Positions 6,919 through 22,569 of a DNA stretch of 22,726 nucleotides are shown one piece after another. Both the position numbers and the translations under genes were made by a program. The notes below the pieces were generated by a model. That model was not told the DNA's origin. It ran no database searches and saw nothing but the letters and a program-made list of their open reading frames with translations. The stretch is taken from positions 1 through 22,726 of IMG/VR virus record IMGVR_UViG_3300040815_001139; one strand, given 5' to 3'. The DNA comes from a virus. Position 1 is the first letter of the stretch; the number at the start of each line of letters is the position of its first letter.

Positions 6919-7875
6919 TTATTTGCCGCGGCTGAAGTTTTTTCTCTGATTATGAGGTATGTTATTCTCTATAATATTTTTCCAAACAGCAATAGTTCTG
7001 TCTAACCCTTCACTAATACCTACTTTAGGAACCCATCCTAATCTTGTAGTGATCTTGTGGTTAGTGCTATTCAATAAATATATTTCTCCTGGTCTTTTAG
7101 GTTTGGTATTCCAATTTACATGTCCTTCCCAACCTAGTTTATCTGCAATTATTTTTACATAATCTTTAATTTTAATTGCATTATCAGGCCCTATACAAAA
7201 TATTTCTCCTGCACACTTGTCAGGATTATTTATAACTAATTCCCAAACATCTAGTAGATCATCTATATATATGAAGTTTCTGTATGGCTCACCATAACCC
7301 AAATTAATTTCCTTTGGATCTTTGAGCATTTGTGTAATAATTTGTTCAGTTACAAAGAAGTCATTATCCTTTCTACCGTATGCATTTGTTTGTCTAATTG
7401 CAGTAAATGGTAGCCCATAACTTCTGTGTGCATATTCTAAATACTTTTCACAGCCATATTTTGCAACGGCGTAGGGGGCATTGGGATTAGGAGGTGTTGC
7501 TTCATTAAATGCAATAATACCTTCTTCTTTACCATCTCGTATAATATCACTAATAGGTTGCCAGCCGTACACTTCCATTGTACTTGCAAATACAAAGTTT
7601 TTTAAATTAGGCAGTTCTTTTGCAACTTCTATCAGATTGACTGTGCCAGTATAGTTAATGTCACTAAATGCTATCTGCTCATAGAAGCTCTGTTCTACTT
7701 CTGTTCTTGCCGCCAAATGCACAATAATCTCAGGATCAAATGTTGATATTTGCATAGCAACTTTGGAATGGTCTCTTAAATCTTCTGTTAAAAATCCTAG
7801 CTCATGTTTATCTTTTAATCTAGCCACCATGTGCTGACCTATAAAACCGTCTGCGCCTGTTATAAAAATTCTCAT
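6919..7875 (-). CDS. NAD-dependent sugar epimerase/dehydratase (extended SDR)
   Basis: This is an extended short-chain dehydrogenase/reductase that acts on nucleotide sugars, of the UDP-glucose 4-epimerase/GDP-mannose dehydratase type. The Rossmann GxxGxxG is at residues 7-13 (GADGFIG). The catalytic Tyr135 and Lys139 are in YAVAK, and the active-site Ser/Thr is in FASTMEVYG (96-104). Its 318 residues are normal for the family. The exact substrate cannot be read from sequence. It is the last gene of the minus enzyme arm and overlaps the upstream oxygenase gene by four bases (ATGA), so translation is coupled. It could supply a sugar for the glycosyltransferase-like protein near 22 kb or for surface modification; that is inference. 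Confidence 0.88.
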   Translation of the reverse strand: MRIFITGADGFIGQHMVARLKDKHELGFLTEDLRDHSKVAMQISTFDPEIIVHLAARTEVEQSFYEQIAFSDINYTGTVNLIEVAKELPNLKNFVFASTMEVYGWQPISDIIRDGKEEGIIAFNEATPPNPNAPYAVAKYGCEKYLEYAHRSYGLPFTAIRQTNAYGRKDNDFFVTEQIITQMLKDPKEINLGYGEPYRNFIYIDDLLDVWELVINNPDKCAGEIFCIGPDNAIKIKDYVKIIADKLGWEGHVNWNTKPKRPGEIYLLNSTNHKITTRLGWVPKVGISEGLDRTIAVWKNIIENNIPHNQRKNFSRGK

Positions 7876-8417
7876 GTTATATCCTCTTCTTTTGCATACC
7901 CTGTGAGTTGCATTGTAAATCTAGGTTCGTAACCTAGGTTAGCGACTGAATGAACTAAGTTTGGCCGTATTATAGTAAAGTCGCCTTTCTTATAATCTAA
8001 CCAACTTTCATTCTCTATTTCTATATAATGGCCCATTAATCTGTCTTGTAAGAATAAATTTACTCTTACAGGTACCATTCCTTCCGTATCCATATCTTCT
8101 CGTTCTGCTTTTTTACGCATTTTATATAACGTATCAACATGTGGTGCAATAAATCTGCCTGGCATTAATTTATTAACAGTAACTATACCATAATGTAACC
8201 AATCACTAAAATGATCATATACACCATGAACCCAACTTGGGCAATCATCTTCAAAAACTTGCCATACCCAAGGTGCTTCATGTGGGTAATCTGGTACTGC
8301 TACTCCTAAACTTTTCCAGTAACCTCCACTGTAAACAGTATTAGTATGTTCTGTGAATTTAAGCCTATATAACATTTCATCTGTTATATGTTCTATATCT
8401 ACATAACCTTTATACAT
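7872..8417 (-). CDS. Fe(II)/2-oxoglutarate oxygenase, aspartyl hydroxylase-like, copy 1
   Basis: The double-stranded beta-helix iron triad is visible: His93 and Asp95 in APHVDTLYKM, and His156 in NLVHSVAN. Arg166 (EPRFTMQ), ten residues after the distal His, is where this superfamily usually anchors 2-oxoglutarate. MGHYIEIEN and WLDYKKGDFTIIRP fit an aspartyl/asparaginyl beta-hydroxylase or cupin-like oxygenase fold. The protein has 181 residues. It is paralogous to the next gene upstream, which it overlaps by eight bases; it overlaps the epimerase by four. The substrate is unknown: a protein side chain or a small molecule made by the cluster are both possible. Confidence 0.78.
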   Translation of the reverse strand: MYKGYVDIEHITDEMLYRLKFTEHTNTVYSGGYWKSLGVAVPDYPHEAPWVWQVFEDDCPSWVHGVYDHFSDWLHYGIVTVNKLMPGRFIAPHVDTLYKMRKKAEREDMDTEGMVPVRVNLFLQDRLMGHYIEIENESWLDYKKGDFTIIRPNLVHSVANLGYEPRFTMQLTGYAKEEDIT

Positions 8418-8904
8418 TTTTAAGTACTGTTATCTGTGCAGAGTAAAATGGTTCCTCTCCCATATTACCTGCTATATGCCAATCGTCTACGCCAAACTTT
8501 ACCCATTCACCTGCCTTCCATTTAACAAAAGGTTGATCGTGTACTTCATAATAATGCCCACGTTTCCAATCTTCTAAAAATATCAGATAACGATGACTTT
8601 CGCCTTCACCGTGTTCTTGTTTAAGTTTAAAATGTTTATCAACATGATGTGGAATTGTTTGTCCGGGTTCTATGTTTATAACACTTACAACATGATGGTC
8701 AAAATCTTGTGGTATCTTTAATGATAAGTCATGTACCCATTGCGGTGAAGTTTCAAACATCTGCCATATACTACTATTATGTTTTGTATAATACTTTTCT
8801 ACAGCAGGTGTTTGCTGATAACATTGAAAGTAATCGTCAAAATTTAATTGCCTCATTTGATCATGAGTTATTCCAAAGTTATCTATTTTACCGTATTTAA
8901 TCAC
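8410..8904 (-). CDS. Fe(II)/2-oxoglutarate oxygenase-like, copy 2 (lacks the usual Arg)
   Basis: This 164-residue paralogue of copy 1 keeps the iron triad: His87 and Asp89 in PHHVDKH, and His143 in DDWHIAGN. It also keeps GHYYEVHD and WKAGEWVKFG, parallel to GHYIEIEN and YKKGDFTIIRP in copy 1. At the position of the 2-oxoglutarate-binding Arg it has Phe153 (EPFYSAQ, where copy 1 has EPRFTMQ). It may therefore use a different anchor, another cosubstrate, or be non-catalytic. The start is GTG at 8904, overlapping the end of the amidinotransferase gene by eight bases. No nearby ATG gives a better start. Confidence 0.72.
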   Translation of the reverse strand: MIKYGKIDNFGITHDQMRQLNFDDYFQCYQQTPAVEKYYTKHNSSIWQMFETSPQWVHDLSLKIPQDFDHHVVSVINIEPGQTIPHHVDKHFKLKQEHGEGESHRYLIFLEDWKRGHYYEVHDQPFVKWKAGEWVKFGVDDWHIAGNMGEEPFYSAQITVLKNV

Positions 8905-9961
8905 AGTAGTTTTCTAATGTACCTTTACGTCTTAAGTCTAATGTAGCACAATGTATGCCGCCGGAGAGCGTCATAGAATGCCTAAACTGTACAGGTACAC
9001 TATCTATACCGTACTTGTCAAGTTCCCTCATCAGAGGTTCTTGTGCTGAGTCTAAGATTACAGTATTTTGATCTACACTTAGTAAGTTCATACCAATGTA
9101 AGGTGAACAAGGTGGCATATAACCTTCGTCTGCTAATTTACTTCCTTGTACAACACAATCATCAAACCAAATTTTATCCCACTTCTTAAACATCTCAGGA
9201 CAGTTATCTGGTGTTACTCTTGAACTGTTCATTAGAACTAGTCCAGGTCTTAGTGGAACAATAGTGCTATCAAAATGTGCAAAACTATAAAGTTCGCTGT
9301 AATGCATTTTGTAACCCATAGGTTCTAGTAATCTTTTTAACCACTTGTATCCTTTCATATTTCCTGAATTACTTACTTGATACAATAAGTCTCTTCCTAC
9401 TCTAACAATATTAGGAGCATCAAAACATATTTCATGATCAAGTAATGTTGCTTTATCTTCTATGTCCTCAAACTGAAACATGTCATCATGTAATCTAGGT
9501 TTAGGTGCTTCTAACCATAATGCACCATCTTCAAATGCTTCATACATTATATCTTTATATAATTGTTTTGCTTCAAAGTATCTTGCTCTAACAGGAGTAG
9601 GCGTTTCAATTAACATATCTCCTAATGGTAATATTAAATCACGAGGACACCAACTATACCAGCCCTTGGTATTCCAACCTTGTCCAATATCATAATTAAC
9701 ATTATCCCAATCGACTATAGAAGGTCGGTGTACTTTAACACCCATTTTAGTAAGTGTGTCCGCTAGTCCGTCTGCATCTTCATTGGCTTCATCTATTACC
9801 CATTGCGGATATGTGCCTTCTAATTTTTCTACATCCTCTTTCTTAAAAGGTGCATAACTAAAACTTCTTGCTGAAATATCAGTTGCTATTCTACTGTGGT
9901 GAGCATGTCCAACGATTATCTCTTCTAATGGGTCCCAATCGTTGTGAGAATTTACTATCAT
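8897..9961 (-). CDS. AGAT-type amidinotransferase
   Basis: It is an L-arginine:glycine amidinotransferase-family enzyme. It would transfer the amidino group of arginine to an amine acceptor through a Cys-amidino intermediate. Landmarks: CPRDLILPLGDMLIETP (105-121), Asp181 in FDAPNIVRVGRD, His229 and Asp231 in FAHFDST, and the nucleophile Cys338 in SGGIHCATLDLRRKG. These match the Cys-His-Asp set of human AGAT. The protein has 354 residues, a little short for the family. The acceptor is unknown: glycine (giving guanidinoacetate), an inosamine, or another amine. It is the second gene of the minus enzyme arm, with AGGAGA before the ATG and a late-type box 31 bases upstream. Confidence 0.88.
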   Translation of the reverse strand: MIVNSHNDWDPLEEIIVGHAHHSRIATDISARSFSYAPFKKEDVEKLEGTYPQWVIDEANEDADGLADTLTKMGVKVHRPSIVDWDNVNYDIGQGWNTKGWYSWCPRDLILPLGDMLIETPTPVRARYFEAKQLYKDIMYEAFEDGALWLEAPKPRLHDDMFQFEDIEDKATLLDHEICFDAPNIVRVGRDLLYQVSNSGNMKGYKWLKRLLEPMGYKMHYSELYSFAHFDSTIVPLRPGLVLMNSSRVTPDNCPEMFKKWDKIWFDDCVVQGSKLADEGYMPPCSPYIGMNLLSVDQNTVILDSAQEPLMRELDKYGIDSVPVQFRHSMTLSGGIHCATLDLRRKGTLENYCD

Positions 9962-9992
9962 TTATTTCTCCTGTGTAATGTATATTCGTGAC

Positions 9993-10000
9993 TATTTATT
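9993..10000 (-). promoter_or_regulatory. Late-type promoter box of the amidinotransferase
   Basis: AATAAATA on the minus strand, overlapping the TAA stop of the aminotransferase-like gene, 31 bases before the amidinotransferase ATG. AGGAG lies seven to eight bases before that ATG. The first base differs from the GATAAATA used elsewhere. Confidence 0.5.
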
Positions 10001-10878
10001 TAACAGTCACTTAAATATTGAGAAATACAGACTCTAAAATTACCTTCTATACCTCTATTAAATTCTTGGTGTCTTTCAGCATCTCCTAATCCAAATATTA
10101 CACTATCACTATATACAAGATCTTGCTCTAAACACACTTGCTCATATTGATCTTTATATTTGTCCCAATTATAATCAGGTGAAAAGTTTTTCATATATTC
10201 AACTCCCAATGCCATACTATAATTGTTAGCCATCTTAACTTCATTAAGCATACTTACACCGTCATCTACATACTCCCTTGTAAATCTTATACCCACTCTA
10301 TGGTTTTCTAATGTGAAGAAAGGCTTACTAAGACTGCATGTAACTTCTTCAATTGCAGGGAAGTTATCTAAGTCTATATGTATGTTTTTACAAATACCCC
10401 AATATGCTAAGTCTAAGCAAACAGGAACATTATGTACTTTACATACTTTCATTAAATGTTCAAAATCAGGATGTATACAACCAAAATCACTAAATGGAGC
10501 ACTTACAATTAATGCATGTAGTCCTAAACCATCTAAATGTTCTTCTAGATAATGTGGATAAGGAATATATTTAAAGTTTAAATGTTTTCCTAAACAAGCA
10601 TGATATTGAAAGTCACCTTCTAATACAATAATTTGTCTATCTTTACTATGTCGTAAAATAAAATTATCGAACGATTGACTTGTTCCCTGTGTATAGTCTG
10701 CATATTTAAATGTATCTAATCCTGTTAAACTTTTATTATTACTAAAATTTAACCATTCTCTCCACACATTTTGATACTCTTCTAATGTAGGAACTGATAA
10801 AGCATTTTTATCTAAATGAAAGTGAAAATCAGATACTTCTTTATTTCTTATAGGCCTTGCACCTCTAACTGCTGTCAT
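10000..10878 (-). CDS. PLP-dependent fold type I aminotransferase-like enzyme (compact)
   Basis: The aspartate aminotransferase fold is suggested by these landmarks, numbered from the ATG at 10878: GTS phosphate loop at 65-67 (TQGTSQSF), Asp156 and Tyr159 in CLDLAYWG (pyridine nitrogen and O3 contacts), Schiff-base Lys185 in CSLSKPFF, and an Arg-containing HRVGIRFTR at 193-201. At 292 residues it is well below the usual 350-400, and the NP(T/N)G motif is replaced by APFSDFG. It may be a minimal or specialised enzyme. An upstream ATG at 10950 would add 24 residues, but the late box GATAAATA ends five bases before the ATG at 10878, which I therefore prefer. It leads the minus enzyme arm and diverges from the radical SAM genes. 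Confidence 0.72.
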   Translation of the reverse strand: MTAVRGARPIRNKEVSDFHFHLDKNALSVPTLEEYQNVWREWLNFSNNKSLTGLDTFKYADYTQGTSQSFDNFILRHSKDRQIIVLEGDFQYHACLGKHLNFKYIPYPHYLEEHLDGLGLHALIVSAPFSDFGCIHPDFEHLMKVCKVHNVPVCLDLAYWGICKNIHIDLDNFPAIEEVTCSLSKPFFTLENHRVGIRFTREYVDDGVSMLNEVKMANNYSMALGVEYMKNFSPDYNWDKYKDQYEQVCLEQDLVYSDSVIFGLGDAERHQEFNRGIEGNFRVCISQYLSDC

Positions 10879-10883
10879 GCCAA

Positions 10884-10928
10884 TATTTATCGCTATAATA
10901 TAATGTTTTAATTTTTTATTGATAAGTA
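10884..10928. promoter_or_regulatory. Divergent pair of late promoter boxes
   Basis: Minus strand: GATAAATA (10884-10891), five bases before the ATG of the aminotransferase-like gene. Plus strand: GATAAGTA (10921-10928), five bases before the ATG at 10934 of the first radical SAM gene. Only 55 bases separate the two start codons, so the two arms of the enzyme cluster share one regulatory gap and should be switched on together. Confidence 0.65.
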
Positions 10929-10933
10929 GTATA

Positions 10934-12013
10934 ATGCTACCTACGTTCACAATACCAAAATCTGTTCATGTAGAACTTACAGACAAGTGTAATGCACAAT
11001 GTCCTGTATGTGTTCGCAGGTACAATGGTGGTCCTATGAACAATGTTATAAAAAATATAGAGTTAGGAGTTGATTATTTTAAAAATCAATTAGGAAAAGA
11101 ATTTATCAAAGAGGTACTTGCATGGGAATTTTGTGGCACAAAAGGAGATCCTATAGCATGTACAGAATTAAAGGAAATAATAGTATACTTAAGATCAGTA
11201 AATTTGTTTACGTCTTTTACAATACATACTAACGGTGGATTTAGATCTAAAGAATGGTGGTATGAATTAGGAACAATATTAAAAAACACAGGTTCTTCAG
11301 TGATCTGGGGCATAGATGGTTTAGAGGATACTAATCATATTTACAGAAAAAATGTTAAATGGAATAAAGTATGGGAAAATTTAAATGCCTACACAGAAGG
11401 AGGCGGTCACAGCATATGGCAATTTTTAGAATTTGCACATAACAAACATCAAATTCCAGAAATAGAAAAAATATGTAAAGATTTAGGAATTGAACTATGG
11501 GTCAAAGATCCTGTAGGATTTCATCGTGTACATAAGCATAATACAGTAGAAGTAACTCCTATAGAAGTTTTTGATGAAGACGGAGAGTATTCCTATTCTA
11601 TTTTACCTAAAGATGCAGACTTAGATCACATAAAAATTATACCTGTCGATGACCACGGAAGATTCTTAAGAAGACAAGAAATAAAATACCATGGTGAACT
11701 ACAAGGTAATTATAATGTAAAATGTAAAATAGGTAATCAAACACCAGACCTTTATATAGACTGCGACGGTGCATTTATTCCTTGTTGTTATATAGGTGCA
11801 GGTATGCATATAGGCGGAATAGATCCACAACTAGCAGAACAATTTAAAGACAAAGAAAGTTTTATACCGTCTAAAGATAATCCTTTTAATAAAATACTAA
11901 AAAATGAGTACTTTACAACAACACTAATACAAGGTATACAAGGGCAATTACCTGGTGAATTAAAATATACGGTTCAATGTGTTGATTCTTGTTCTACTTG
12001 TCATGTACAATAA
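10934..12013 (+). CDS. Radical SAM/SPASM-like protein 1
   Basis: Cys19, Cys23 and Cys26 in TDKCNAQCPVC form the CX3CX2C site for the [4Fe-4S] cluster that cleaves S-adenosylmethionine. The C-terminal third is rich in paired cysteines (VKCKIG, IDCDGAFIPCCYIG, VQCVDSCSTC), like the SPASM auxiliary-cluster domain of peptide- and sugar-modifying radical SAM enzymes. The product has 359 residues. I chose the ATG at 10934 over an upstream TTG at 10919 because the TTG lies across the GATAAGTA box and the ATG has the standard five-base gap. Its gene overlaps its paralogue by 11 bases. The substrate is unknown and no obvious precursor peptide gene lies beside it. Confidence 0.85.
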   Translation: MLPTFTIPKSVHVELTDKCNAQCPVCVRRYNGGPMNNVIKNIELGVDYFKNQLGKEFIKEVLAWEFCGTKGDPIACTELKEIIVYLRSVNLFTSFTIHTNGGFRSKEWWYELGTILKNTGSSVIWGIDGLEDTNHIYRKNVKWNKVWENLNAYTEGGGHSIWQFLEFAHNKHQIPEIEKICKDLGIELWVKDPVGFHRVHKHNTVEVTPIEVFDEDGEYSYSILPKDADLDHIKIIPVDDHGRFLRRQEIKYHGELQGNYNVKCKIGNQTPDLYIDCDGAFIPCCYIGAGMHIGGIDPQLAEQFKDKESFIPSKDNPFNKILKNEYFTTTLIQGIQGQLPGELKYTVQCVDSCSTCHVQ

Positions 12014-13265
12014 ACCTATAAATGCAGTTCATGTAGAAGTTACAGATAGATGTAATTCAGAATGTCCTGGTTGTGCTAGAGCGGCCTTTGGGGGTCCAGT
12101 AAAAGATTTTATTAAAAATAAAGAGTTAGGTTTAGAATATTTTACAGACTATATTGGTATAGATTTTTGTAGGCAAATCAAGTCATGGAACTTTTGCGGT
12201 AATCTTGGTGATCCTAGTAATGCTCATGACCTTGTAAAAATTGTTAATTTCTTATTTGAATGTAATCCTGACACTAGAATAGAAATACGAACAAACGGTG
12301 GTGCTAGAAATGAGAAATTTTGGTTTAATTTAGGCGAAGCATTTAAAGGAAAAGTATTTGAAAGACAAGGCGGTGTGATTTGGAGTATAGACGGCTTGTC
12401 AGAAACAAATCATTTACACAGGAAAAACGTAAAATGGGATAAACTTTGGAAAAACTTTCAAAGTTATTTTTTAGGTCTAAACAGTAATTTAAATAGTACT
12501 GATGGAGAATGGATAGAAACACCTGTAAATGATGGCAGGGAGATTACTAAATTTTATTTTAATTCGTACAATTGGAGTAATGGTGCTTGGGAGTTTTTAT
12601 TATTTGATCATAATAAAAATGATATAGAAAACATTAAAGAACATTGTAAGTCTTATAATTTAGAACTACGAATTAAACAACCATACGGATTTCAATACGA
12701 TATTGATACTAACAGCACATTTACTATGCCTGTTTACGATAGGCAACCGAACAAAGACGGCAATTACGATCTTCTTTACACATTAAAACCTTACGGTTCA
12801 ATCAATTTTATAGACGATCATGTACCTTTTATGCAGGAAAATGCTAAGTTGACTTACCCAGATCCAGATATGTATAACGATGCTAATATAGAAAAGTATA
12901 TTAGTAAAAATAATTACAACATTGATATAGATTGCTTTAGTATATCTGAAGAGTCGGATTTTTACGAAATATTTTTAAATGCAGACGGCAGTATATTTCC
13001 ATGCTGTTTCCATGCAAATAAAATTCAAACTGGTGAAAAACAAATTAATGAAATGTATGGAAATTATAATAATGTTTTAAGTAAAGATAATACAATCAAA
13101 GATATTTTAAATTCAAACTTATTTAAAAAAGACTTGCCTGCAGGTATGAACGGCAATTTAAACGGAAAATACTGTTATACATGTATGGATTCGTGTTCTA
13201 ATAATCAAAACATTGCTAAAAAATTATTATTGTTAGGACAGTCCTCAGTAAGAAGTGAAGACTGA
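12003..13265 (+). CDS. Radical SAM/SPASM-like protein 2
   Basis: Paralogue of the preceding gene: HVEVTDRCNSECPGCARAAFGG here against HVELTDKCNAQCPVCVRRYNGG there, with the CX3CX2C at Cys17, Cys21 and Cys24. Both carry WSIDGL or WGIDGL followed by NH.(H/Y)RKNVKW and a Cys-rich C-terminus (DGSIFPCCFHA, CYTCMDSC). It has 420 residues, about 60 more than copy 1, mostly in a central insertion around 150-180. The ATG at 12003 is preferred over the upstream GTG at 11979. The TGA stop is part of the late box for the gp14-like gene, and TAA follows in frame. The two proteins may form a heterodimer or act in sequence; that is inference. Confidence 0.85.
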   Translation: MYNKPINAVHVEVTDRCNSECPGCARAAFGGPVKDFIKNKELGLEYFTDYIGIDFCRQIKSWNFCGNLGDPSNAHDLVKIVNFLFECNPDTRIEIRTNGGARNEKFWFNLGEAFKGKVFERQGGVIWSIDGLSETNHLHRKNVKWDKLWKNFQSYFLGLNSNLNSTDGEWIETPVNDGREITKFYFNSYNWSNGAWEFLLFDHNKNDIENIKEHCKSYNLELRIKQPYGFQYDIDTNSTFTMPVYDRQPNKDGNYDLLYTLKPYGSINFIDDHVPFMQENAKLTYPDPDMYNDANIEKYISKNNYNIDIDCFSISEESDFYEIFLNADGSIFPCCFHANKIQTGEKQINEMYGNYNNVLSKDNTIKDILNSNLFKKDLPAGMNGNLNGKYCYTCMDSCSNNQNIAKKLLLLGQSSVRSED

Positions 13266-13271
13266 TAAATA
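13264..13271 (+). promoter_or_regulatory. Late promoter box fused to gp14-like start
   Basis: TGATAAATA-GTAGT-ATG. The box GATAAATA overlaps the TGA stop of the second radical SAM gene and ends five bases before the ATG at 13277. No Shine-Dalgarno sequence is visible. Confidence 0.75.
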
Positions 13272-13276
13272 GTAGT

Positions 13277-14344
13277 ATGCCTAGATTAAGTTTATGGAAT
13301 CCGGTCAAGGGAAATGACTACACTTTTACTGACAGAATAGTTGGTGAGCACATCTACGCCGGAGGAACCGGAGTAAACATCCATAAATATTTAGGAGTAC
13401 ATGAAACTGTAGACGAAAATGATCCTACAAGGCCGTCAAGTGCCGGCAGTAATTCAGAAGTGTTTATACAAGACTTACTATTTTTAGAAAACAGAGATAG
13501 AAAATATAGCGAAGACATATACGAATTACGAGGACAATATAATTTAGGCGATAACGACGCCTTTGATCTAACACAATTTGGTATGTTCCTAGCAAATGAC
13601 ACATTATTTATGAACTTCCATATTGAAAGCATGGTTGAATCTATAGGCAGAAAACTAATGCCCGGAGATGTACTAGAACTTCCTCATTTACGAGATGATT
13701 TATTATTAGGCAGTGAAGAAGCAATAAACAGATTTTATGTGGTTACTGACGGAAGCAGACCAGCAGAAGGATACGATCCTCGTTGGTGGCCTCATCTTTG
13801 GAGAGTTAAATTAGGTCCCATAACTGACAGTCAAGAATACAGAGATATTCTTGGTACTGGTGAAGAGGAAGAAGATTTAAGAAACCTAATCAGTACATAC
13901 GCAAATGAAATTAATATAAATGATAAAATATTAGAACAAGCAGAAAATGATGTTCCATTTGCACCACAGTTTAGAGATACTGCACATTTATATTTTGATG
14001 AATCAGTACCAGGCAAACCGTCACCAACATTAGACTTTGCGTCTGGAGACGGTACACCTATAAACGGAATAAGTTTAGTAGGCAGTGGAGAAAGTTTCCC
14101 ACAAAGTGGAACAAGTGACGGAGATTATTTTTTAAGGACAGACTTTAGTCCTAACAGACTATTTAAAAAGTCTGGAACACGTTGGTTAAATGTTGGTACC
14201 GATAGTAGAGGTGTTTGGTCAGCGGCTAATAGAATCTTACAAGGGTTTATTAATAACAATAACTTAACAAATACAAATGATGGTGAAACAATAAACGAAA
14301 GACAAAATTTAAGTAAAGTCTTAAAGCCAAAAACGGATAATTAA
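13277..14344 (+). CDS. gp14: Neck/virion structural protein, probably gp14-like
   Basis: The N-terminal two thirds contain segments I associate with a neck or structural protein of cyanophage-type myoviruses: FIQDLLFLENRDRKY (63-77), GMFLANDTLFMNFH (102-115), LMPGDVLELPHLRDD (127-141) and RWWPHLWRVKLGPITDSQE (169-187). Its place directly before a gp15-like gene supports gp14, which forms the neck with gp13. The C-terminal part (about 225-355) is Gly/Ser-rich and carries a GDYFLRTD...LFKKSGTRW module (282-303) like those in the sheath insertion and the gp15 extension. The assignment as gp14 rather than another neck or baseplate protein is moderate. Confidence 0.62.
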   Translation: MPRLSLWNPVKGNDYTFTDRIVGEHIYAGGTGVNIHKYLGVHETVDENDPTRPSSAGSNSEVFIQDLLFLENRDRKYSEDIYELRGQYNLGDNDAFDLTQFGMFLANDTLFMNFHIESMVESIGRKLMPGDVLELPHLRDDLLLGSEEAINRFYVVTDGSRPAEGYDPRWWPHLWRVKLGPITDSQEYRDILGTGEEEEDLRNLISTYANEININDKILEQAENDVPFAPQFRDTAHLYFDESVPGKPSPTLDFASGDGTPINGISLVGSGESFPQSGTSDGDYFLRTDFSPNRLFKKSGTRWLNVGTDSRGVWSAANRILQGFINNNNLTNTNDGETINERQNLSKVLKPKTDN

Positions 14345-17391: not shown

Positions 17392-17399
17392 TATTTATC
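17392..17399 (-). promoter_or_regulatory. Late promoter box within the cyclase stop
   Basis: TGATAAATA-ATAAT-ATG on the minus strand. The box overlaps the TGA stop of the cyclase gene and lies five bases before the ATG at 17386. Confidence 0.75.
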
Positions 17400-19467
17400 A
17401 CTTGGTTGTTTTGCGTTCAACTCCGTCCCATTCGCCTTTAGGCATAGGTTGTTTGATTCTTACTGCATAAAGATCTGCAAGGGTATCGTTCCATTTATGA
17501 TCTTTAATTATTTCTAGTTGATTAGAACACTCTGCCCATGCTCTATTTTGATATGCATCAACCATTCTGTTTACTACTCTTGCATACTTATGATCTTGCA
17601 ATATAGTATAAATTGTTACTGGTGCTGTTTGTCCTTTAACTGCAATTTTATCCAGCATTACTAAATTTTCCGGTATTGGTATTTGTTTTAGTGTATGCTC
17701 TGTAAACATAAAGAACACACCATACTCTTTTGTCTGTGCTTCTAAACGTGCCGCTAAGTTTACACTATCACCTAATACGGTGTAATCAAAACGTTGATTA
17801 CTACCCATGTTACCTACTACAGCATCGCCTGTGTTAATACCTATACCAACACCTAACTCCATTAAGCCATCTGCTTTAAGTTCTTTATTGAGAGTTGCTA
17901 ATTCTGTTTCCATTTCCTGTGCTGTTTCGATTGCCAACTGAGCATGGTTATCAACATCAAGTGGGGCATTCCATATCGCCATTAAGGCATCACCTATATA
18001 CTTGTCTATTGTGCCTTCTTTACGCATAACTAAATCAGTCATTGGGGTCATATATCTGTTTATAAGTTTACCTAACCCTTGTGGGTCTGTTTTAAACTGT
18101 TCCGATATGGGAGTAAACCCACGAATGTCTGAGAACAAATATGTCATTGTTCTTGTGTCTCCACCTAAACGTAATAGGCTTGGATCTTTTTGTAACTTTT
18201 TAACCATGGCTGGTGCAAGGTAATGTTCGAATTGTTTCTTAATTTGTTCACGTAATTTAAACTGTTTATAAAAGTTATTAAATGCCGCCTGTGTAAAAAC
18301 TAAAAAGCCACTTAGAACAGGAAATGTTGCGTCTACTAGTACTAAACTACCTGTGTATTGTCTTACACTATAATATGCTATACCGCCTAAAATCGCTAAG
18401 GCAATAGGTGCCGTTAGTAGTAAAGGTAATCTATATACTGCTAAAGCAACAAGTACCATAGTCAGTAACCCTATGAGAAGCTCTGTGATGGCACTTAACT
18501 GACTTCGTGTTATGTTACTACCATCTATAAAGTTCTGTAGCATATGAGCTTGTATCTCTTGTGGATATAAGTTTCCTCTAGGTGTAGGTACAGGGTTTGC
18601 TATACCTTCTGCTGTAACACCCACTATCACCATTTTACCTGCTAAATCTGGTATGCTGTCTGCTCCTGTATATTCTATAGTTTCAAAACTATTATTAAAA
18701 CGTATATATGCTGTGCCGTCTGGTTGAGTAATAATAGGTTCGAATCCTTTTACAGCAACTTCCTGTATTCCTATTTCACTTGTTTTAACTATATAACTTT
18801 TATTACCTGTTTTAACTCTCAACATTTCCACAGCAAAAGAGGGGTATATTTTCTCACCCACAGTAATTGCTAGTGGGTATGTTCTTGTTTGATTGTCTGG
18901 CTGTGGTGCAGAAGCATTTACTCCTTTTCCATTTGCCATTGATTCTAATATAGGAACATTGGTAACCAAGTTGGGCCATTTTAACAAATAATCTTTTGCT
19001 GGTACAGGACCAATTGTGCCGGTGCCTATATGAGGTCCAGATGTTTTTATACCTTTAACACTAGGTGTTTGGCTTAGTACATTGTAGTTAATCGGATTTC
19101 TTCTTGCTCCAGGAACATTAACTTTATTTTGTTCTAAAAAACTAGCAAAAGTAGGGTCTCCTCCAAAACGATCTTTTTCTGGAAACATAATAGTCCAACC
19201 CACAACTCCACTATTTTTACTTGCAACATCTACAATTAGTTGAGCATAATACTGCCTGGGAAAAGGATATTGGCCGTAAGTTGCTAGAGTATTTTCGCCA
19301 AAGTTAAGTAGTACAACATCATCGCTTTGTACTAATTCATCTAATTGTTGGTAACTGTCAAAAACTTGACCACGTAAACTTTGTAATGGCGTAGGGTCAA
19401 TTACCCTTAGTGCGAGTAGTAAGACAATTGATACTGCTACGGCATACCCGCTATATAACCATTTCAT
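17398..19467 (-). CDS. Membrane CHASE2-class III adenylate cyclase
   Basis: It is predicted to make cAMP from ATP. Order of parts: N-terminal membrane segment (about 8-22); a large extracytoplasmic CHASE2-type sensor (about 28-318, with LRGQVFDSYQQL, FPRQYYAQLI and the family's late V..GVTAEG and P.G..YP.EIQAHMLQ segments); two to three membrane segments (about 326-395); a short linker helix; then the cyclase domain (about 436-622). The catalytic set is complete: metal-binding Asp447 (FSDIRGF) and Asp493 (IGDALMAIW), adenine-selecting Lys489 and Thr563 or Asp561 (RFDYTVLGD), Asn570 and Arg574 (VNLAARLE). Its 689 residues are normal for bacterial CHASE2 cyclases. A late box ends five bases before the ATG, so the gene is wired into the phage late programme. 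Phage-encoded proteins of this type are not familiar to me. Confidence 0.92.
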   Translation of the reverse strand: MKWLYSGYAVAVSIVLLLALRVIDPTPLQSLRGQVFDSYQQLDELVQSDDVVLLNFGENTLATYGQYPFPRQYYAQLIVDVASKNSGVVGWTIMFPEKDRFGGDPTFASFLEQNKVNVPGARRNPINYNVLSQTPSVKGIKTSGPHIGTGTIGPVPAKDYLLKWPNLVTNVPILESMANGKGVNASAPQPDNQTRTYPLAITVGEKIYPSFAVEMLRVKTGNKSYIVKTSEIGIQEVAVKGFEPIITQPDGTAYIRFNNSFETIEYTGADSIPDLAGKMVIVGVTAEGIANPVPTPRGNLYPQEIQAHMLQNFIDGSNITRSQLSAITELLIGLLTMVLVALAVYRLPLLLTAPIALAILGGIAYYSVRQYTGSLVLVDATFPVLSGFLVFTQAAFNNFYKQFKLREQIKKQFEHYLAPAMVKKLQKDPSLLRLGGDTRTMTYLFSDIRGFTPISEQFKTDPQGLGKLINRYMTPMTDLVMRKEGTIDKYIGDALMAIWNAPLDVDNHAQLAIETAQEMETELATLNKELKADGLMELGVGIGINTGDAVVGNMGSNQRFDYTVLGDSVNLAARLEAQTKEYGVFFMFTEHTLKQIPIPENLVMLDKIAVKGQTAPVTIYTILQDHKYARVVNRMVDAYQNRAWAECSNQLEIIKDHKWNDTLADLYAVRIKQPMPKGEWDGVERKTTK

Positions 19468-21396: not shown

Positions 21397-22569
21397 TCAT
21401 TTATTGTACATTGATTTTAATGTATCATAAAGTTCTTTTAAATATTTACCATTATCCCTTATATCGTTATAAAGATCTAAATTATGTTGAAGTATTGGAT
21501 ACATATCCTTTACCATTAAAGACAATTCTTTATGAGATGTCAGACTTAATGTTTTGTATAAGTTAATTAATTCTTTATATCTTTTATAATGATTTGTTAG
21601 GCCGTCATATGATTCGTCCCAATAATTATTAAATGTTTCAAATCCTAAACTTTTAATATATGCTAATGCTCCTATTTGAGCATGTAGTATAAATGGTTGC
21701 ATAGTTACAATTGGTTTTGTCGATTTCGCTGTCATATCTAATTCAAAAGGATTATCGTCTAAACTAGTATATTCGAAAAATGTTTCGCTTACAAAACTTA
21801 TGTAAGAATCTGCATGTGCTTGTTTTTCAGGAGTAGTTGTAAGAGAACATTTGACGTTATTATGCACGTCTTCCGTTGTTGCATCATATTCCCAAGGTAA
21901 TGTTTTTAAGAAATTATCACTAAGTTGCAATTCTTCTTTCCAATCAGATATTTTTATATCATCAAAAGGTGTTAAACAAGATACAATATTATATTTTTTT
22001 AAATCTTGTAAATATATAAATTTTGCTAATCTGGCTCTGTGTTTATATGGTTTGCCCATAAAGGTAAGTAATTTATATTTGTTTTCTTTACCATTTAAAA
22101 TATTATCTTTTCTTTGTTGTAAAAAGTCATCTCCCTGATAAACAGGCATAAACATTTGACTTTGTACTGTTGCCACATTATAACTAACATCTTTAAAAGG
22201 TTTTATATTACCACATGCCAATATAACTTCTGATATATCTAAATTATATTTGGTTTGTGTATTCATGATTATTATGTGTGTATAATCTTTATTACCGTTA
22301 TACTTGTATGTTATATCATAGCATTCATGCGTAAAATCAAATAGTATTTTACATAAACCTTTTTGTACATCATTTAAAATGTTATCAGGTATCTCGTATG
22401 TAAAGTTTTCTGCACGTTCTACTAATTCTAAATTATCATAGGGAGGACAAGAAATAGACATATCTATTTCTATAGGGTAGATATATTTTTGGTTGCTATC
22501 AGTTCTCTCTTTTAGTTTGAAGTAATCTGTATGAGAAAAATACTGACCTTTATCGTAAAAGATCTCCAT
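21397..22569 (-). CDS. Glycosyltransferase-like protein
   Basis: It resembles a group of phage proteins of probable glycosyltransferase fold. Landmarks: TFMGKPYKHRARLAKFIYL (169-187, like the N.R.HR segment of the group), SFVSETFF (258-265), KSTKPIVTMQPFILH (282-296), LGFETF (308-313) and DESYD (318-322), followed by a helical C-terminus. In the group the last part normally reads EKTFKPI...PF...LGF.TF...DESYD, so the Glu-Lys-Thr element is degenerate here (AKSTKPI). Activity is inferred, not shown. It has 390 residues and no membrane segments. The gene has the only perfect TATAAATA late box in the window, five bases before the ATG. It may use a sugar made by the epimerase at 6919-7875. Confidence 0.6.
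   Translation of the reverse strand: MEIFYDKGQYFSHTDYFKLKERTDSNQKYIYPIEIDMSISCPPYDNLELVERAENFTYEIPDNILNDVQKGLCKILFDFTHECYDITYKYNGNKDYTHIIIMNTQTKYNLDISEVILACGNIKPFKDVSYNVATVQSQMFMPVYQGDDFLQQRKDNILNGKENKYKLLTFMGKPYKHRARLAKFIYLQDLKKYNIVSCLTPFDDIKISDWKEELQLSDNFLKTLPWEYDATTEDVHNNVKCSLTTTPEKQAHADSYISFVSETFFEYTSLDDNPFELDMTAKSTKPIVTMQPFILHAQIGALAYIKSLGFETFNNYWDESYDGLTNHYKRYKELINLYKTLSLTSHKELSLMVKDMYPILQHNLDLYNDIRDNGKYLKELYDTLKSMYNK

Follow-up and report, generated by a model that had tools for sequence, protein, structure and literature searches.

What product is made by seven enzyme genes that lie between the neck and tail genes of a phage? We addressed this question for the virus record IMGVR_UViG_3300040815_001139 of IMG/VR, whose 22,726 nt (22.7 kb) are referred to below as the window. 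The window covers the structural region of a T4-related myovirus, a marine phage, and contains genes for a tail sheath, a neck-type protein, a gp15-type sheath stabiliser and other structural proteins. The enzyme genes occupy positions 6919-13265 and are arranged in two divergent arms. The left arm, on the minus strand, encodes a putative pyridoxal phosphate (PLP) aminotransferase, which we call PLP, a predicted amidinotransferase (AMD), two predicted oxygenases (OX2 and OX1) and a predicted nucleotide-sugar enzyme (EPI). The right arm, on the plus strand, encodes two radical S-adenosylmethionine (radical SAM) proteins (RS1 and RS2). We hold with moderate confidence that the cassette is best explained as a late-expressed, modular pathway that makes a guanidino-sugar and transfers it to an acceptor.

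A sequence-only reading of the window had described a divergent seven-gene cluster around a 55-base gap, and all seven open reading frames (ORFs) were found in place. With the true starts of PLP (ATG at 10878) and RS1 (ATG at 10934), which we read from the sequence, the distance between the two ATGs is exactly 55 nt. The genes within the arms overlap or abut, as that reading had it. In the left arm, the overlaps are 4 nt between EPI and OX1 and 8 nt each between OX1 and OX2 and between OX2 and AMD, save for a 38-nt gap before AMD.

Enzyme families of the cassette

AMD (8897-9961, minus strand, 354 aa) aligns over residues 2-352 with the inosamine-phosphate amidinotransferase StrB1 (1bwd, E 4e-85). 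Matches to AGAT (E 5e-52), SxtG and HsvA, all at about 1e-52, are weaker. In AGAT numbering, AMD keeps the Cys-His-Asp triad (D254, H303 and C407), along with D170, D305, R322 and S355. The full-length StrB1 match and the presence of the catalytic residues bear out the earlier amidinotransferase call, and AMD is a true amidinotransferase of the AGAT/StrB1 family. Two narrower identities were rejected. AMD is unlikely to be StrB1 proper, since it falls in a separate clade of the tree and no cyclitol genes were found in the cassette. Nor does it appear to be the AGAT of the creatine pathway, which forms a branch of its own together with SxtG and HsvA and has Asn300/Met302 in the glycine pocket, where AMD has Ser300/Ala302.

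EPI (6919-7875, minus strand, 318 aa) is assigned by Pfam to the nicotinamide adenine dinucleotide (NAD)-dependent family of nucleoside diphosphate (NDP)-sugar 4,6-dehydratases and epimerases (GDP_Man_Dehyd 8e-42, Epimerase 1e-40). Its best NCBIfam match is LegB (TIGR04180, 9e-37), at 126.8 bits against a curated cutoff of 475. Residues G7/G10/G13, S98-T99-M100-E101, Y135 and K139, which form the GxxGxxG, Thr-x-Glu and YxxxK patterns, are invariant in 66 sequences. The Thr-x-Glu pattern is typical of 4,6-dehydratases and not of 4-epimerases. With T99-M100-E101, Y135 and K139 invariant, a 4,6-dehydratase-type enzyme is the better reading of EPI. Thus, the family named by the sequence-only reading stands, whereas its more specific label of sugar epimerase does not.

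Searches of Pfam, PHROG and the sequences of the Protein Data Bank (PDB) with PLP, OX and a further family, c5 (see below), gave nothing usable, and we therefore used folds for PLP and OX. PLP (10000-10878, minus strand, 292 aa) is a compact protein. Its AlphaFold2 model (predicted local distance difference test score, pLDDT, 82) has CobD, Pad-1, HisC and AAT as top folds, with template modelling (TM) scores of 0.5-0.65, a range that does not separate the subfamilies. K185, D156, GTS 65-67 and R282 are invariant in 70 sequences. The modelled fold type I, the Schiff-base lysine, the aspartate near the pyridine nitrogen and the C-terminal arginine agree with a PLP enzyme, as had been proposed, and by model and motif the protein is a putative fold-type-I aminotransferase.

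OX1 (7872-8417, minus strand, 181 aa) was modelled with a pLDDT of 93. The model superimposes on AspH (5apa) with a root-mean-square deviation of 2.9 Å over 141 columns, among other double-stranded beta-helix hits. The HxD...H triad and an AspH-like arginine are invariant in 141 OX sequences. OX2 (8410-8904, minus strand), which has a GTG start and an internal ATG at 8856, is recognised at 9e-29 by a profile derived from the OX genes of distant phages and belongs to the OX1 family. Neither protein matched Asp_Arg_Hydrox or any other Pfam family of 2-oxoglutarate (2OG) oxygenases. With the 2OG facial triad in both and an AspH-like fold for OX1, the two proteins noted earlier as oxygenase-like are predicted to be AspH-like Fe(II)/2OG oxygenases, OX1 on the basis of its modelled fold.

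The matches of RS1 (10934-12013, plus strand) and RS2 (11979-13265, plus strand, probable ATG at 12003) to radical SAM/SPASM families range from sub-threshold to just above threshold. The cysteines of the CxxxCxxC motif and of the SPASM auxiliary clusters are all invariant (39 sequences), and this, together with an RS2 SPASM match above the Pfam cutoff (2.5e-5), upholds the earlier naming of two radical SAM/SPASM proteins. RS1 matches phrog_21308 (1e-19), and RS2, its paralogue, falls in the same cluster. An anti-phage defence system, viperin or other, was considered and rejected: the sole PADLOC match in the cassette was a weak pVip hit for RS1 (1e-4), with none for the other cassette genes and hence none for the core.

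Conserved core, exchangeable cargo and late-type boxes

To define the unit that is conserved, we kept 80 of at least 96 related stretches from an AMD search (78-100% identical). All four types, PLP, AMD, OX and EPI, are present in 40 of the 40 complete sites, i.e. those with both flanks, with one to three OX copies per site. Radical SAM genes are found alone, paired or with the family c13 in 33 of the 60 sites that cover their interval. They are absent in the other 27, with other genes or nothing in their place, and the seven genes are thus not the single unit that had been supposed. Since these loci had been fetched by AMD, we ran the test again on loci retrieved through the neck gene. EPI, and with it the insertion, was present in 31 of the 32 close-relative loci with enough upstream sequence. 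The core genes are therefore not scattered separately among related contigs.

Close relatives share the flanks with and without the cassette, in line with the insertion in the neck/tail region that had been proposed. Locus L372, whose neck protein is 81% identical, has an empty site, where the divergent structural gene and g74 are 95 nt apart, and further empty sites are found in the more distant relatives L275, L282, L283, L284 and L290. Locus L276 carries a minimal cassette of EPI (72%), AMD (84%) and PLP (61%), with no OX and no radical SAM gene. The empty sites and this three-gene version indicate that the cassette, inserted in a divergent promoter region, can be dispensed with and that its minimal core is EPI, AMD and PLP. 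The usual core is EPI, AMD and PLP with one to three OX genes. The two radical SAM genes belong to the swappable, accessory cargo. The catalytic residues of all cassette families are invariant across relatives, and the ratio of nonsynonymous to synonymous substitution rates (dN/dS) for AMD and EPI is 0.01-0.03 in the three gene pairs in which it could be computed.

Other cargo was observed at these sites. In 26 of the 60 sites (L007, L019-L024 and others), the stretch between EPI and g74 encodes a B12-binding protein of the radical SAM type, about 620 aa in length (Radical_SAM 1e-15, B12-binding 2e-12). Small sulfotransferase-like proteins lie in or beside the cassette in L028 and similar loci (family c24) and in L012, L032 and L071 (family c26), with a weak Stf0 match for c24 only. 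A second cargo spot, between gp15 and a 355-aa structural gene, contains ORFs that look lysozyme- or peptidase-like by eye (L057-L063 and L072-L076).

We then considered the timing of expression. Plain TATAAATA was rejected as the late box, since its count in the window is below expectation (3 found, 5.2 expected) and thus not enriched. The longer form GATAAATA is enriched in the window, with 9 copies against 2.3 expected, a number reached in none of 100 shuffles. One copy (10884-10891, minus strand) lies 5 nt ahead of the PLP start codon, and GATAAGTA (10921-10928, plus strand) lies 5 nt ahead of that of RS1, so that the late box predicted for each direction is in place. AMD has AATAAATA about 31-33 nt upstream (9993-10000, minus strand). 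Another copy of GATAAATA (13264-13271, plus strand) is found 5 nt ahead of the flanking structural gene that starts at 13277, at one edge of the insertion. In relatives, a box is present 5 nt upstream of the neck gene in 58 of 58 cases and upstream of the 355-aa structural gene in 97%, and boxes also precede the tail sheath gene. NATAARTA occurs within 70 nt upstream of AMD in 77% of the relatives. The box is less regular before PLP (GATAAATA in 19%, a looser form in 39%), which is due in part to other genes that often lie ahead of PLP in relatives. Given the boxes before the neck and 355-aa structural genes, late expression of the cassette can reasonably be inferred.

The spacing of these boxes is itself of note. 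Of the 221 GATAAATA boxes that lie within 70 nt of a start in the window, L002-L081 and L085-L097, 147 precede the start codon by exactly 5 nt. The usual spacing of T4 late promoters would place the transcript start at the A of the ATG for such boxes, which suggests leaderless late mRNAs.

Related cassettes in phages and bacteria

A broader AMD profile found AMD relatives in at least 546 viral contig stretches. In 82 loci, the genes within five of AMD include a short DegT/StrS-type aminotransferase (62 loci), OX (59), a family annotated in PHROG as 'glucosyltransferase' (40) and uridine diphosphate (UDP)-glucose dehydrogenase (39), and radical SAM, carbamoyltransferase or SGNH-like genes are often near. 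In 57 of the 82, nearly all from much more distant phages, AMD is accompanied by both OX and an aminotransferase. Taken together with the 40 of 40 complete sites above, this favours the earlier proposal that amino, guanidino, hydroxyl and sugar chemistry form a single pathway. In L158, L165 and L166, a homologue of the flanking gene g386 adjoins EPI (60%), followed by OX, DegT and AMD. These loci appear to be a related site, with DegT/StrS in place of PLP. Locus L177 encodes, directly after DegT-AMD, a 968-aa fusion of OX, the c5 family and UDP-glucose dehydrogenase (9974-12880, plus strand). The c5 family has no Pfam or PHROG match, and its likeness to GT-B glycosyltransferases is an impression from a C-terminal motif, not a test. 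The window contains a c5 member (21397-22569, minus strand, profile E 4.8e-40), a candidate partner and possible transferase.

The 250-kb relative G001 carries a second enzyme island at 157-183 kb (L092-L094) with UDP-glucose dehydrogenase, c5, eight rSAM6-family proteins and a Nol-like carbamoyltransferase. This island follows a baseplate wedge gene, fibre-like genes and a 6236-aa ORF.

In the tree, the AMD group of the window, together with three contigs from metagenome-assembled genomes (MAGs), of which at least L185 looks phage-like, has as its sister (99/97) a bacterial clade whose members include SAR11, a leptospiral MAG, a gammaproteobacterial MAG and candidate-phyla genomes. The entry for phage CP220 in this tree is a wrong-frame ORF and was disregarded. 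In the leptospiral MAG (L237, 58-12760), AMD lies among LegB-like, LegC, NeuC, NeuB and cytidylyltransferase genes, a content that points to a legionaminic-acid-type cluster with an embedded amidinotransferase. The gammaproteobacterial MAG (L262) also has a LegC-family gene, below the curated cutoff. By analogy, the leptospiral cluster would share the logic of the phage cassette, as a 4,6-dehydratase, an aminotransferase and then an amidinotransferase of the sister clade are combined in one locus, and a guanidino-nonulosonic acid is possible in bacteria. The phage cassette differs in that it lacks NeuC, NeuB and a cytidine monophosphate (CMP) step and has added OX and radical SAM genes.

StrB1 amidinates an amino-cyclitol. 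It is the closest solved relative of AMD, full-length and with the same catalytic residues, including R322, and its step, on a sugar-like ring, follows that of an aminotransferase. AMD groups instead with other bacterial amidinotransferases, and neither cyclitol enzymes nor kinases were seen in the cassette. Among phages, one described parallel is an interchangeable module of Campylobacter phages CP220/CPt10, in which a putative glycine amidinotransferase accompanies five radical SAM genes and for which no pathway was proposed; CP220 also has two genes annotated with nucleotide-diphospho-sugar transferase domains (PMC2853527). The module resembles ours in being swappable and in combining an amidinotransferase with several radical SAM genes, but its AMD is only about 30% identical and no EPI or OX is annotated. 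In Synechococcus phage S-SCSM2R (PQ898602), an amidinotransferase, the OX family, a StrS-type aminotransferase, radical SAM and glycosyltransferases are adjacent; here AMD is 38% identical, DegT replaces PLP and the genomic site is another. An island of Pelagibacter phage Mosig EXVC030M (MT647606) has a PLP relative (about 33%) and radical SAM, Asp/Arg-hydroxylase-like and epimerase genes near tail-fibre genes, but no amidinotransferase annotated or matched.

Two further observations concern other genes. In G001, several proteins encoded at 88-97 kb (L089) look secreted and, by eye, have curlin-like repeats; Melnitz phages are reported to be linked to curli (PMC9004378). The late region of the window itself encodes a protein with CHASE2 and class III adenylate/guanylate cyclase domains (17398-19467, minus strand), with relatives (34-36%) in Pelagibacter phage HTVC008M and the Methylophilales phages Melnitz. 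Its cyclase domain resembles Pycsar cyclases, and the gene is present in many relatives, including those with an empty site.

A candidate guanidino-sugar pathway and its alternatives

The sequences themselves show the gene content, the intact catalytic residues, the joint conservation and synteny of the core, the insertion with its empty sites, the repeated company of nucleotide-sugar enzymes and one fusion. From these we infer the reactions, their order, the identity of the sugar, the transferase and the acceptor as follows. EPI would dehydrate a nucleotide-hexose to its 4-keto-6-deoxy form and PLP would transaminate the keto group, giving a 4-amino sugar. AMD would then amidinate this amine with arginine as the donor, yielding a 4-guanidino sugar and releasing ornithine. 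OX1 and OX2 may hydroxylate the sugar, or the residue due to carry it, and the swappable radical SAM enzymes could provide further tailoring. A transferase encoded elsewhere, with the c5 protein of the window as a candidate, would link the finished sugar to a virion glycan or protein. The virion is our preferred acceptor because the insertion sits in late virion genes and the second island of G001 follows baseplate and fibre-like genes; the host envelope is a possible, less likely acceptor.

Several points weigh against this scheme. PLP matched no solved structure by sequence and is class-I/II-like, not DegT-like, whereas sugar aminotransferases are usually DegT. EPI matched no NCBIfam equivalog above cutoff, with all scores far below, which bears on its substrate and exact reaction. 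OX and c5 have no assigned substrate, and no glycosyltransferase of a recognised family was found inside the cassette of the window. Finally, the cassettes of more distant phages often lie outside the structural genes, which weakens the step to a virion target.

The guanidino-sugar might instead decorate lipopolysaccharide, capsule or another host glycan late in infection, for competitor exclusion or release. A surface-glycan (nonulosonate) cluster occurs within the cellular AMD clade nearest to this one and the neighbours in distant phages resemble envelope-glycan loci, but the insertion within late virion genes, the late boxes and the position of the second island beside tail fibre-like genes make this rather unlikely. 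We regard a released small molecule, either creatine- or guanidinoacetate-like or an aminoglycoside-like inhibitor of competitors or host, as distinctly unlikely. AMD does resemble StrB1 of streptomycin synthesis, and creatine synthesis is the role that an ocean-virus survey gives to a guanidinoacetate methyltransferase gene (PMC11360552). However, the cassette has no methyltransferase, inositol kinase or exporter, residue 302 is Ala rather than the Met of AGAT, and the partners of AMD are nucleotide-sugar enzymes. Amino-acid chemistry is quite improbable: PLP would decarboxylate or transaminate an amino acid, or cyclise, in the manner of GntC, a hydroxy-arginine produced by OX, and AMD would act on the resulting amine. 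CobD and HisC are among the top folds of PLP, GntC ranks 50 and OX is AspH-like, but a sugar aminotransferase of the DegT type takes the place of PLP both at the related site and in the majority of distant cassettes, L276 has no OX, and EPI is constant.

Radical SAM and PLP enzymes feature in known phage pathways of base hypermodification and a deoxynucleoside monophosphate kinase gene lies nearby, yet DNA hypermodification with a guanidino group is very improbable, as no thymidylate-synthase-family enzyme (PF00303) was found in the 250-kb G001, the kinase gene also flanks empty sites and the timing is late. A hot spot of unrelated auxiliary genes, which the free variation of radical SAM and other cargo might suggest, is scarcely credible given the constant order of the core, the recurrence of the same enzyme types in distant phages and the fusion in L177.

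In the open-access literature, we found neither a phage guanidino-sugar pathway nor one for legionaminic acid with an amidinotransferase; this covers open-licence papers and is weak evidence of absence. As far as we have seen, amidino transfer as the signature step of a phage nucleotide-sugar or glycan island is undescribed for phages. More tentatively, a large and diverse set of phages may share an unrecognised late pathway of this kind and attach the sugars to their own particles as positively charged, arginine-derived glycans, with the same chemistry in some bacterial nonulosonate clusters.

The amidinotransferases of phages are mostly annotated in isolation, as 'glycine amidinotransferase' or as part of creatine metabolism. 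Here, the amidinotransferase appears at the centre of a conserved sugar cassette, which swaps its aminotransferase, oxygenase and radical SAM parts and is met again in hundreds of phage contigs. A guanidino-sugar is a definite, testable product, and the proposed pathway would tie the abundant and unexplained 2OG oxygenase and radical SAM genes of phages to nucleotide-sugar chemistry. It also suggests that some bacteria carry guanidino-modified nonulosonic acids.

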